34,462 nt of DNA from an uncultured Anaeroplasma sp. (GTDB lineage Bacteria > Bacillota_I > Bacilli_A > Acholeplasmatales > Anaeroplasmataceae): positions 1 to 34,462 of the forward strand of contig CANQDJ010000011.1 of the NCBI GenBank assembly GCA_947592005.1, written 5' to 3'. Position numbers and translations under genes: made by a program. Positions 4,956 through 24,024 of the stretch are shown in pieces (the stretch's first letter is position 1; the number at the start of each line of letters is the position of its first letter). Below the pieces are notes generated by a model, which saw only the letters and a program-made list of their open reading frames with translations, did not search any database and was not told the DNA's origin.

Positions 4956-6311
4956 TTAATATCTTTTAATATATCTTTCGATTTCCCATTTTGTTACATG
5001 GCGTCTGTATTCATTCCACTCCAACATCTTCGCTTCGATCATTTTATTGACTGTATGTTCTCCCATCGCTTCTTGCATCAAAGAATCCTGTTTAAAACAC
5101 AACACCGCATTATACAAATCGGAAGGCAAAGAATCCACTCCCAATGCCTTTCTTTCCTCGTCATTCAACGCATATAAATTTTCATAAATTGGGGCAACTT
5201 TTTCACAATTTCCCTCAATACCATCTAATCCTGCCCGAAGGATAGCCGCCAAGGCCAAATATGGATTTGCCGCAACATCTACACTTCGTATCTCCGTTCT
5301 GGTTTTCATTCCTCTGGCCGCAGGAATACGAATCATAGTTGAACGATTGGAATCACTCCAAGAAATATAACATGGGGCTTCAAAACCGGGAACGATTCTT
5401 TTATATGAATTAACGATTGGGTTTGTAATCAAACAAAACCCTTTGGCGTGAGCCAAAATACCCGAAATCCAACGATTCGCCACATCACTTAATTGATTGG
5501 GTGTCGTTTCATCAAAAAACGCATTCTGTCCATCTACCGTCATCAAAGAACAATTTACATGCATACCGCTACCATTGATTCCTTCTACCGGTTTCGGCAT
5601 AAATGTCGCATGAAGCCCATGCCTTCTCGCTATATTTTTAACAACCAATTTAAATGTTTGAACATTATCACAAGCCTCTAAAGCGGAATCAAACTTAAAA
5701 TTAATCTCATGTTGACCAGTAGAAACCTCATGATGTGCCGCTTCAATCGTAAACCCTATTTTCTGTAATTCCAACACAATATCTCTTCGACAATCTTCTG
5801 CACAATCTACCGGAGCCAAATCAAAATAGCCTCCATGATCGTTAAACTCCAACGTAGGATTGCCTTTATCATCTAATTTAAACAAGAAAAATTCCGGCTC
5901 TACTCCACAATTAAATGCCTTAAATCCCATTTTTCGCATAACTGCCAAATTCCGTTTCAACACACCTCTCGGATCTCCTTCAAACGGAATATGTTCGCCA
6001 TTATGACCAGGACGATACACATCACAAATAAATCTAGCAACTTTACCATATAATGTATTTTCCCAATTCAACACCAAAAACGTATCCAAATCCGGATGTA
6101 AAAACATATCCGCTTCATATATTCTTACAAACCCTTCAATCGAAGATCCATCAAACATTACCGCATTATCCAATGCGTCTTCTAATCTGGTTACGGGAAT
6201 TTCCACATTTTTTAACATGCCCATCATATCCGTAAACATCATTCGAATATAACGAATATTCTCTTCTTTACATATTCTTCGAATATCTTCTTTCGTATAT
6301 CCTTTTATCAT
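4956..6311 (-). CDS. glnA: Glutamine synthetase type I
   Basis: This enzyme makes glutamine from glutamate, ammonia and ATP in the cytoplasm. The 451-residue length and motifs [13 protein letters not shown] (about 53-65), [22 protein letters not shown] and [13 protein letters not shown] are typical of GlnA. The length fits the GSI-alpha group of Firmicutes, and I see no adenylylation-type tyrosine motif, so feedback inhibition and transcription are the likely controls. The ATG follows GAGGAGG at good distance. It is transcribed alone from a consensus promoter at 6421-6449, with a leader of about 100 bases that contains an intrinsic terminator. It converges with the transporter pair on a shared terminator. 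Confidence 0.97.
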
Positions 6312-6414
6312 ACATTTCCTCCTCTATAGTATACTCTTCAACAAAAGAAAAAAGTCGCTGAAAAACAATCGTTTTGCGACTTTGCATCTAAGTATTGTTG
6401 TAAGCACCATTGCT
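6312..6414 (-). promoter_or_regulatory. glnA leader with possible attenuator
   Basis: The leader between the predicted start of transcription and the glnA ribosome binding site contains a complete terminator hairpin (6345-6383). A small alternative stem ACTT/AAGT (6379-6393) overlaps its 5' arm, so the two cannot form together. This fits transcription attenuation. The alternative is that the hairpin simply ends the upstream operon and glnA has another start downstream. I recognise no known riboswitch. Confidence 0.4.
6345..6383 (-). terminator. Intrinsic terminator in glnA leader / after the Gx operon
   Basis: On the minus strand AAAGTCGC and GCGACTTT form the outer stem, AAAAC/GTTTT an inner stem, followed by TTTTTTCTTTT. 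It lies downstream of the 6472-13854 operon and also downstream of the glnA promoter. Confidence 0.75.
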
Positions 6415-6420
6415 ATTACC

Positions 6421-6449
6421 ATAATACAAAACATTCTTTGAATTGTCAA
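6421..6449 (-). promoter_or_regulatory. glnA promoter
   Basis: TTGACA (6444-6449), 17 bases, TATTAT (6421-6426) on the minus strand is a near-consensus sigma-A promoter. The expected start is near 6414. Confidence 0.8.
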
Positions 6450-6471
6450 TTCATTCCTTTGTGTAAACGCT

Positions 6472-6978
6472 TTATTCTTCCCGTATAAATTGAGAGGTTA
6501 TGCTTCTTTTCAAATACAACCGAACAATCGCTCCACAAAAAATCCCCGTTCCGATAGACAATATCCCGATAAATGGTAAATAATACACCACTGCCTTCGT
6601 CGATAATAACACAATAGCGATTAGAATCTGTCCGATACAATGGGACACACTTCCCAACACAGAAACCCCAATCACACCGAAAATCTTCATTCTTGAAAAA
6701 CAAGCCATCACGATAAAAGACAATATTCCTCCGGATAAAGACATCAAAAACGTAGGAGATAATATCGTCGATCTCAACAACCCAACCAAAACAATTCTCA
6801 AAATATCGACCAAAGCCGCTTCTCTAACCTTAAATTCATACAATAAAATCAAAATAATCCCATTTGCCAAACCCAACTTAACTCCCGGAACAAAAACAGG
6901 AATAAAAGATTCCAAAATACTAAAAACAATAGCCAAAGCGGTCATCATAGCCAATATAGCCATTCGTTTTACACTCAT
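6472..6978 (-). CDS. Gx transporter family membrane protein (EetB-like)
   Basis: A 168-residue integral membrane protein of the family annotated as heptaprenyl diphosphate synthase component I or Gx transporter (PF07456), here with about five hydrophobic segments and the conserved stretch VPGVKLGLANGIILILLYEF. In Listeria the related EetB sits in the flavin-based extracellular electron transfer locus. The true start is ATG 6978, which overlaps the upstream TGA as ATGA; an in-frame start at 7017 would need a long unconserved extension. Its position after ApbE and NusG-II genes matches the FmnB-EetA-EetB arrangement. The biochemical role is unproven. Confidence 0.85.
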   Translation of the reverse strand: MSVKRMAILAMMTALAIVFSILESFIPVFVPGVKLGLANGIILILLYEFKVREAALVDILRIVLVGLLRSTILSPTFLMSLSGGILSFIVMACFSRMKIFGVIGVSVLGSVSHCIGQILIAIVLLSTKAVVYYLPFIGILSIGTGIFCGAIVRLYLKRSITSQFIREE

Positions 6979-7340
6979 ACGACAATATCCACTCCCTCTT
7001 CCGCCTGTTCGATACAAATATAAATTTTATTCGGCAAACAAGTAATCGTTTGATTCTTTTTGGAAATCTTTCCTTGATGCACACATATTCTATCCGGACA
7101 AGTACTATGACTTACCCAAAGGGCTTTATCCTTCACTTTGATTTCCAATTCCCCAACTTCTCCGATAACCGTATATGTATCTTCCTTATCCAAATCAATT
7201 TTTAAAACCAACGTATCATCATAATAAACATACGCCATTATATCTTTTTTAGAAGAAAATAAAAAAGTACATAAAATTCCAATACCCATTATAACCAATA
7301 AACCAACAATCAATAAAACATCATTTCTTACTTTGTGCAT
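6975..7340 (-). CDS. NusG domain II-containing membrane-anchored protein (EetA-like)
   Basis: A 121-residue protein with one N-terminal membrane helix (about 8-28) and an extracytoplasmic NusG-II domain (PF07009). The diagnostic C-terminal pattern is present: two cysteines in CPDRIC, then GKISKKNQTITCLPNKIYI. It overlaps the ApbE gene end and the Gx gene start, so the three are translationally coupled. ATG 7340 has GGGTGG five bases upstream and is preferred over GTG 7349. The counterpart in Listeria is EetA, whose exact function is unknown but which supports extracellular flavin electron transfer. Confidence 0.85.
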   Translation of the reverse strand: MHKVRNDVLLIVGLLVIMGIGILCTFLFSSKKDIMAYVYYDDTLVLKIDLDKEDTYTVIGEVGELEIKVKDKALWVSHSTCPDRICVHQGKISKKNQTITCLPNKIYICIEQAEEGVDIVV

Positions 7341-8299
7341 ACATTCCACCCGCCTGTTTGATAAAGAATATCATTCTCTTTCCACACAAGAACATCAATT
7401 CCCTTAGCCATACAAAATTCCTTTATTTGTTCCAAAGGCATAGAAAATAAAGCAGTCGCATACACATCGCATTCTATACTATTCTTTGTCATAACATTGA
7501 TATTATCATACAACAATGATGGTTTTCCCGTAAACGCATTTAACAAATGATGGTATCGTATTCCGTTTACTATAGTATTTTGATATTTTCCGGAAGATGT
7601 TCCGATGGCTTGATTCTCTTGTTCTACTATACAAATATTTTCATTTTGATACGGCTTTTGTAACGCTATTCGAAACGAATCTTTGCCTTTCTTCCCGAAA
7701 ACAACATTCGAATTTCCGGCATTAATCAAAAAATTATTCACACCTTCTTCTTCCAAATACAACTTCGCCTTTTCTGTGGCATATCCTTTGGCAATTCCTC
7801 CCAAATCAACATTTCCTTCGCCATTTAAAGTGATCTTATCTTCCCGAATATCCAAAGTCGTATGTTCTATAATCTCCAATTCCTCTACGATAACCGAATC
7901 TTCTAAAATCATTCCATCTTTTAATGCGTCCTTCCATAAATGCGTAAGCCTACCCATAAATACATTAAAATATCCATCGGTTTTCTCCATATATTCCAAA
8001 GAAACTTCCAAAAGTTCTTTTAATTCCGGATTCGCTTCTATCTGCCTTTTTTCATTCAAATCATATAGACTATTCTTCTCTTCATTCGAAACAAAATCCG
8101 AAGATATTTTATCATATCTTTGATATATCTTCTTAACCTCATTATAGTGCTTATCCGCATCTTTATCATTATATAACGTTACCTCAATCGTCGTATCCAT
8201 CGCATAAATCGGCAAACAAGAATGAACTTCCAACGTTTTACAAGAAAAAAGAGGTAATATGAAACCTATTATCAAAACAAATAAAAATATCTTCTTCAT
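7328..8299 (-). CDS. apbE: FAD:protein FMN transferase, lipoprotein (ApbE/FmnB type)
   Basis: ApbE enzymes split FAD and attach FMN to threonine of extracytoplasmic proteins. This 323-residue copy starts with a lipoprotein signal whose lipobox is LFSC (Cys about 20), placing it outside the membrane. It has YAMDTTIEVTLY, the binding loop DLGGIAKGYATEKA (about 165), HLLNAFTGKPS, and a metal-region variant ECDVYATALFSM. The start ATG has GGAGTGG upstream. No recognisable flavinylated substrate (an FMN-bind domain or NqrB/RnfG motif) lies in this window, so its target must be elsewhere or unrecognised. Confidence 0.93.
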   Translation of the reverse strand: MKKIFLFVLIIGFILPLFSCKTLEVHSCLPIYAMDTTIEVTLYNDKDADKHYNEVKKIYQRYDKISSDFVSNEEKNSLYDLNEKRQIEANPELKELLEVSLEYMEKTDGYFNVFMGRLTHLWKDALKDGMILEDSVIVEELEIIEHTTLDIREDKITLNGEGNVDLGGIAKGYATEKAKLYLEEEGVNNFLINAGNSNVVFGKKGKDSFRIALQKPYQNENICIVEQENQAIGTSSGKYQNTIVNGIRYHHLLNAFTGKPSLLYDNINVMTKNSIECDVYATALFSMPLEQIKEFCMAKGIDVLVWKENDILYQTGGWNVCTK

Positions 8300-8316
8300 A
8301 TTACCACTCCACTCTT

Positions 8317-8997
8317 CTATTCTTTCTTTTTTCTTTTTAACAATCCCGTAGTCAAAATATGATTATTCGCACAATATCTATATAACACCATACAGAAACA
8401 AGAAACCATAATTCCCGTTGCCAATCCGGCAATCACATCGGTCAAATAATGAACTCCCAATATCGTTCTCGAAAACATAACCAAAATAATCAACAAACCG
8501 AAAACCGTATATAACACTCTTTTTAACCACTTTTTATAATCCGTATGATAAACCAAATAAATCAAAAACGTATATAAAAATCCCGCAGCCGTTGAATGTC
8601 CGGAAGGAAAACTCGTCGTAAACTCATTCGCCCAACGTAATTCTTCATATGGTCGTTCTCTCGAATATAAATCTTTCAATCCAACATTGATAATTACCGA
8701 CAACATCAATCCGAAAACCAATAAAAAGAAACGAAAATCCAATTTGGTTACAATAGCGATTCCCAACAATAAAATCAAAATAAACGTAAAATTACCAAAC
8801 TCCGTAAAAAACTTAAAAAACCAATACAAAAATCCATATTTCTTTCCCCGAATTTGATAACAAAAATCCCGAAATCCCCGATCAATTCCAATCGGTTCTT
8901 CTCGATAAAAATAAATAATTATCGTCAACGCAATAAAAATAACAGCACATAACGCAACACCGGCAACCTTAAATCCCAAAATCCATTTACTATTCAT
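8317..8997 (-). CDS. PAP2-family membrane phosphatase
   Basis: A 226-residue, six-helix membrane protein with all three PAP2 signatures: KDLYSRERP (K-x6-RP, about 106-114), PSGHS (about 130) and SRTILGVHYLTDV (SR-x5-H-x3-D, about 172-184). Such enzymes dephosphorylate undecaprenyl pyrophosphate, phosphatidylglycerophosphate or related lipids at the outer membrane face. UppP in the same operon makes an undecaprenyl-phosphate recycling role plausible. The start ATG 8997 overlaps the preceding gene by eight bases; the longer in-frame start at 9051 would add residues that are really coding sequence of the previous gene. Confidence 0.9.
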   Translation of the reverse strand: MNSKWILGFKVAGVALCAVIFIALTIIIYFYREEPIGIDRGFRDFCYQIRGKKYGFLYWFFKFFTEFGNFTFILILLLGIAIVTKLDFRFFLLVFGLMLSVIINVGLKDLYSRERPYEELRWANEFTTSFPSGHSTAAGFLYTFLIYLVYHTDYKKWLKRVLYTVFGLLIILVMFSRTILGVHYLTDVIAGLATGIMVSCFCMVLYRYCANNHILTTGLLKRKKKE

Positions 8998-9322
8998 TTC
9001 GCACCAACCGTACAATCGTATTATTTTCTGTTTCCTCATAATGAACTTCATCGATTAAGGCATTAATAATCCCAAAATCATCATCAGAAGAACCTTCTCC
9101 CATCAACTGCCAACCATACTCTTCAATTTCCACATTTCTGCCGTTTTTAATATTGTCGGTGATAAACTTCTTTATTTTCTTATCCCACTTATTCATAGTA
9201 AACGTTAAAACACTCTTCTGTTCCGTTTGATTTACTTCCAACGTAAAATCCGAATCACAATTCTCTAAAATAAACAAGGAAAACTCTTGAATGATTTTAC
9301 ATATCTTTTCGTTTCTTTGCAT
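8990..9322 (-). CDS. Small ATPase-like protein, possible anti-sigma/GHKL remnant
   Basis: A 110-residue soluble protein with no membrane segment. Its C-terminus GIINALIDEVHYEETENN, followed by TIVRLVRN, resembles the last strand-helix part of RsbW-type GHKL ATPases, where a glycine is followed by helix, DEV, then a strand ending in VRL. I do not see a convincing N-box or G1 box, so this may be a minimal or degenerate relative, or a chance likeness. ATG 9322 is chosen because AAGGAGAG lies eight bases upstream; it overlaps the preceding gene by 26 bases. The function is unknown. Confidence 0.65.
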   Translation of the reverse strand: MQRNEKICKIIQEFSLFILENCDSDFTLEVNQTEQKSVLTFTMNKWDKKIKKFITDNIKNGRNVEIEEYGWQLMGEGSSDDDFGIINALIDEVHYEETENNTIVRLVRNE

Positions 9323-23948: not shown

Positions 23949-24024
23949 CTTCAGCAACTGGCTATCCAAGTAGGACCCTATAGTTTTGCGTCACTAGATT
24001 ACTCTAGTTTTGCCTTTGTAATCG
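23949..24024 (-). promoter_or_regulatory. c-di-GMP-I (GEMM-I) riboswitch
   Basis: On the minus strand the diagnostic elements occur in order: GGCAAA (about 24014), hairpin ACTAGA-GTAA-TCTAGT with a GNRA tetraloop, GACGCAAAACTATAGGGTCC, and GGATAGCCAGTTGC. This matches the GEMM-I aptamer. The base before CAAA, equivalent to G20 that contacts the ligand, is G, which fits c-di-GMP rather than the cGAMP variant. It lies 57 bases upstream of the surface operon ATG. The expression platform is unclear: AAGGAGGG and a weak AAAAAGT/ACTTTTT stem lie in between. Confidence 0.9.

Follow-up and report, generated by a model that had tools for sequence, protein, structure and literature searches.

The DNA analysed here, a stretch of 34,462 nucleotides (the window), comes from an Anaeroplasma sp., which we take to be a wall-less bacterium of the gut or rumen. 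Its minus strand carries glnA (4956–6311; TIGR00653, 515 bits), encoding a type I glutamine synthetase and the gene that the leader described below would control. Upstream on the same strand is a gene for a heptaprenyl-diphosphate-synthase-I-like protein, which ends at 6472 and is itself preceded by genes for NusG_II and ApbE proteins. The initial annotation had placed a consensus promoter followed by a complete intrinsic terminator at 6312–6449, and both the coordinates and the arrangement proved correct. A promoter scan of 5000–9000 gave as its top-scoring site TTGACA-17-TATTAT at 6449–6421 (minus strand), with 11 of 12 consensus matches. The −35 box (TTGACA, 6444–6449) reads TTGAC[AT] in essentially all leaders of relatives, and the −10 box (TATTAT, 6421–6426, after the 17-nt spacer) keeps its spacing to the first leader hairpin, P1, in these relatives. 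Transcription is predicted to start at ~6414, 5′ of the terminator (6383–6351), giving a leader of ~100 nt up to the ATG; the order on the minus strand is promoter, leader with terminator, ribosome-binding site (GAGGAGG, 6318–6324, 3′ of the terminator) and glnA. The same scan found no good promoter within 6345–6311, and a start downstream of 6345, raised earlier as an objection to attenuation, is unsupported by the sequence. Elsewhere in the window, a c-di-GMP-I riboswitch (23950–24024, minus strand; 60.8 bits) lies upstream of a 251-aa gene without a Pfam match and just 3′ of a gene for an HD-domain (HD-GYP-like) protein, in what is a Mollicute-related genome.

The terminator hairpin (6351–6383, minus strand) was identified by folding and by compensatory changes in relatives. 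It consists of an 8-bp stem, AAAGTCGC/GCGACTTT (5′ arm 6383–6376, 3′ arm 6358–6351), and an inner stem, followed by the T-rich tail TTTTTTCTTTT (6343–6353); because of its 17-nt loop, it was missed by a simple terminator scanner. A terminator alone arose in 212 of 5000 dinucleotide-preserving shuffles of the leader, and the full-length leader showed no unusual folding energy (z = −0.91). Since this energy was not significant, the case was built on motif and conservation instead of stability. Folded in isolation, the terminator state was stabler than the antiterminator state (−14.2 versus −6.3 kcal/mol), as would be expected of a switch that needs a protein for its ON state.

An alternative stem overlapping the terminator 5′ arm, also noted previously, does exist. 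It corresponds to a hairpin at 6386–6375 (minus strand), P2, of sequence TGC-AAAGTC-GCA (UGC-AAAGUC-GCA in the RNA), whose loop and 3′ arm overlap the terminator 5′ arm (6383–6376). A further hairpin of the same form, P1 (AGC-AATGGT-GCT, or AGC-AAUGGU-GCU in the RNA; 6414–6403, minus strand), was absent from the initial annotation and is located at the predicted 5′ end of the transcript. Both hairpins are conserved in relatives and have 3-bp stems and 6-nt loops with A1 and G4 (6411 and 6408 in P1, 6383 and 6380 in P2). Two hexaloop hairpins with A1 and G4 in each are what defines an ANTAR target RNA (PMC3369931, PMC8164766); judged by its sequence, the alternative stem fills the place of the second hairpin in this textbook dual-hexaloop motif. 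The dual A1/G4 motif occurred in none of 5000 dinucleotide-preserving shuffles of the leader. P2 and the terminator share bases and are mutually exclusive in the folds of the host and of its relatives, P2 being the candidate antiterminator. At 16 nt, the linker between the two 3-bp stems exceeds the 5–12 nt spanned by eut leaders in E. faecalis, in which a 14-nt linker did not work (PMC3369931), and falls within the 2–25 nt permitted for ANTAR RNAs of actinobacteria (PMC8164766). P2 retains just two strong pairs, with the third missing, in roughly half of the relatives. A larger linker-to-loop helix around P2 was seen in the nascent fold of the host, but it was absent from folds of the 5′ part in relatives and is not claimed.

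For comparison with relatives, a covariance model of P1, linker and P2 (R1) was built from a seed of 14 leaders and used to search 160 Acholeplasmatales genomes. At E ≤ 0.001, matches were found in 25 genomes, of which 24 are Anaeroplasmataceae with one match each; 10 of these 24 leaders lay outside the seed, and the single match in the host genome was the glnA leader. The remaining match, in G115 (E = 1e-3), falls outside the family and was regarded as chance. Anaeroplasma bactoclasticum ATCC 27112 is among the organisms with the leader. All 24 Anaeroplasmataceae leaders are located upstream of glnA, or of glnN and then glnA (G005 and G007). G4 and the GC/GC closing pairs were kept in both loops of every leader (24/24), and A1 was found in 24/24 P1 loops and 23/24 P2 loops, the exception having G1; variable loop positions were 3 and 6 in P1 and 2, 3, 5 and 6 in P2. 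The outer pairs of P1 showed changes on both sides among relatives. Covariation of the leader, which had been proposed as a check, was also found in the terminator stem: two-sided compensatory changes occurred at five of the eight pairs and 99% of cells paired, values neither of which was reached in 500 shuffles, for trimmed arms whose 3′ arms were located by pairing and T-run (somewhat favouring pairing) and with two leaders of shifted terminator register left out. Variable letters of the P2 loop were compensated in the terminator 3′ arm, so that one set of bases doubles as ANTAR-like loop and terminator arm.

The window itself contains no ANTAR gene. A profile search of the host genome returned exactly one, on another contig (PF03861, 49.3 bits against a cut-off of 27.3): a gene at G000:C26:5631–6224 encoding 197 aa, flanked by glyA and by rnfC, with which rnfCDGEAB begins. 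The glyA–ANTAR–rnfCDGEAB cluster (L001/L080) occupies G000:C26:4389–11064; rnf genes function in ion-translocating electron transport, and the gene names beyond rnfC are presumptive, taken from position and our own reading. A profile for the subfamily of this protein, termed type A, found members in 22 of the 160 genomes, scoring at least 134 bits versus at most 71 for other ANTAR proteins. The type-A gene adjoins rnfC in 20 of the 22, and in G034 and G138 it lies directly 5′ of the leader and glnA and 3′ of glyA. The glnA-type dual-hexaloop leader was present in 22/22 genomes with a type-A protein, and leaders without one occurred only in G005 and G026, both of which are 78% complete. A GlnA tree allowed eight independent genome pairs with contrasting leader states to be drawn; the type-A ANTAR protein differed in parallel with the leader in seven to eight of them and against it in none (sign test, p about 0.008). 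This co-occurrence suggests that the ANTAR protein very probably controls the glnA leader. Weak ANTAR matches in Acholeplasmataceae covered positions 7–38 only, in ~300-aa proteins, and were regarded as false.

The host ANTAR protein was then compared with EutV by alignment, using the residues given in PMC8934654. Lys143, Lys147, Lys149, Glu160, Tyr164, Met172 and Arg175 of EutV are kept; Arg142, Arg168, Asn173 and Arg177 are not. At the profile level, the N-terminal part aligns over its full length with the receiver domains found in Rv1626 and EutV, with His at the phospho-Asp position (His, Gln or Ser in most relatives), and a Pfam receiver match was found in 0/14 members. From its sequence, the N-terminal domain is probably an AmiR-like pseudo-receiver. 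Lacking the phospho-aspartate, this receiver-like domain probably responds to a partner protein or a ligand, in the manner of AmiR, and not to a kinase; glutamine synthetase itself would be the first candidate for a partner.

The gene order of relatives bears on the caveat, raised at the outset, that the hairpin serves only the upstream operon. On that account it would be nothing more than the terminator of the NusG_II/heptaprenyl-diphosphate-synthase-I-like operon, with glnA expressed from a later promoter or left unregulated; its location, ~90 nt past the last stop codon (6472), is such that it could end those transcripts too. However, a near-consensus promoter lies between that stop codon and the hairpin, and the lack of a good promoter at 6345–6311 provides no later one. 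The gene found upstream of glnA in the host occupies that place in relatives both with and without the leader. Where it does so in genomes lacking a type-A ANTAR protein, the element is missing, and any terminator comes before the promoter or else none is there; relatives with the type-A protein show the order promoter, hexaloops, terminator. The leader is also kept behind other upstream genes, such as the ANTAR gene in G034, and an operon terminator leaves the conserved A1 and G4 letters unexplained. The comparison largely excludes this caveat and makes an exclusive role in the upstream operon very improbable, although the hairpin may end that operon's transcripts as well.

A terminator/antiterminator layout alone does not name its controller, and nitrogen could in principle be sensed by a riboswitch, a T-box, a leader peptide or another RNA-binding protein. 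An Rfam scan found no family above its gathering threshold at 6312–6449, riboswitches and T-boxes included, the c-di-GMP-I riboswitch being the sole Rfam match in the window. The leader measures only ~100 nt from predicted start to ATG, and dual A1/G4 hexaloops with a near-perfect link to one ANTAR subfamily are specific; we consider an attenuator of another kind to be correspondingly very unlikely. In many Bacilli the rule is control of initiation by a repressor of the GlnR/TnrA type; if glnA were governed in this way, the terminator would be incidental. A search near the glnA promoter for a GlnR/TnrA-type box, allowing up to one mismatch, found none, and such control would leave the conservation of the leader unexplained, so that this appears the least probable of the explanations considered.

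The glnA leader is thus, with high probability, an ANTAR-responsive transcription attenuator in which binding of the protein would give read-through. Attenuation of glnA, as originally suggested, is strongly supported by motif, conservation, covariation and co-occurrence with the protein, and can be specified as ANTAR dual-hexaloop antitermination. RNA started at ~6414 would fold by default into the terminator and stop near 6345, leaving glnA off. The genome's only ANTAR protein would bind P1 and P2 during their transcription, stabilising P2 above all; because P2 uses bases of the terminator 5′ arm, the terminator could not form while P2 is held, and polymerase would enter glnA. We infer ANTAR binding, read-through and a nitrogen-related signal from these features: a link to nitrogen is the natural guess from the gene controlled, and the ANTAR protein, whose gene is linked to rnf, might instead take a redox or energy input.

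The EutV-controlled eutP–eutG leaders of Enterococcus faecalis (PMC3369931, PMC8934654) have in common with the host leader two short hexaloop hairpins with A1 and G4 in each, a P2 that shares bases with the terminator 5′ arm and a nitrogen-related gene downstream; the host leader differs from these in its longer linker (16 nt) and in its target, glnA. Unlike EutV, the host ANTAR protein has neither a phospho-aspartate nor an adjacent kinase gene. NasR/nasF of Klebsiella oxytoca and AmiR/amiE of Pseudomonas aeruginosa share this RNA architecture. AmiR possesses a pseudo-receiver as well, and the host protein is similar to it in missing the phosphorylation site. The input side differs: NasR carries a NIT sensor, and AmiR has AmiC as its partner.

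Leaders of a second type were found upstream of glnN, the type III glutamine synthetase gene (loci L267, L260–L279, L301, L305 and L306). Within the family, these have a TTGACA-17-TATAAT promoter or a near match to it, a single hexaloop hairpin (GGC-A[AG]NGNN-GCC) towards the 5′ end and a terminator that overlaps it; there is no second A1/G4 loop. G4 was kept in 21/21, with the outer pair changed to A–U in G033. A model of this single-hexaloop leader (R2) matched 24 of the 160 Acholeplasmatales genomes, all 24 of which have an ANTAR protein. Matches both outside the seed and outside Anaeroplasmataceae came from G036, G040 and G043, where the downstream frames seen begin like glnN. The host has such a leader on glnN (G000:C50, L267), a seed member with a weak score of 30 bits. 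Counting both types, a leader was present in 35/35 ANTAR-bearing genomes and in 1/125 genomes without an ANTAR protein (G005; the doubtful G115 match was not counted). Separately, a single hexaloop of the form GAAC-A[AG][AG]GGC-GTTC was seen in G036 (L114), G040 (L115) and G021 (L125), upstream of a divergent glutamine synthetase gene followed by another ANTAR gene; the 5′ arm of the terminator is built from the loop and 3′ arm of this hairpin.

Attenuators with a single hexaloop come as more of a surprise, since EutV is described in the literature as needing two. Walshe et al. (2022) argue that both loops have to be present during transcription, and leave open how single-loop sites are to be understood. 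That one hexaloop suffices for ANTAR-controlled attenuation in Anaeroplasmataceae, with the host protein acting on both the glnA and glnN leaders, seems to us evenly balanced between true and false. A dual-loop glnA leader and a single-loop glnN leader in one genome offer a direct test of why ANTAR targets normally carry two hexaloops.

ANTAR leaders on genes for glutamine and glutamate synthesis have been predicted in other bacteria (PMC3369931 and PMC3369936), and Ramesh et al. list them for glutamate, glutamine and arginine synthases in other Firmicutes (PMC3369931). The gene class is the same as in those Firmicutes predictions; here the leaders belong to Anaeroplasmataceae (Mollicutes), where the ANTAR gene forms part of a glyA–rnf cluster. 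The literature searched held no ANTAR report for Anaeroplasma-like Mollicutes. The dual-hexaloop glnA leader is a known class of switch, found here in this group, in which one RNA-binding protein would control the central nitrogen-assimilation enzyme, and control of glnA would be linked, through the ANTAR gene, to the rnf cluster and glyA.
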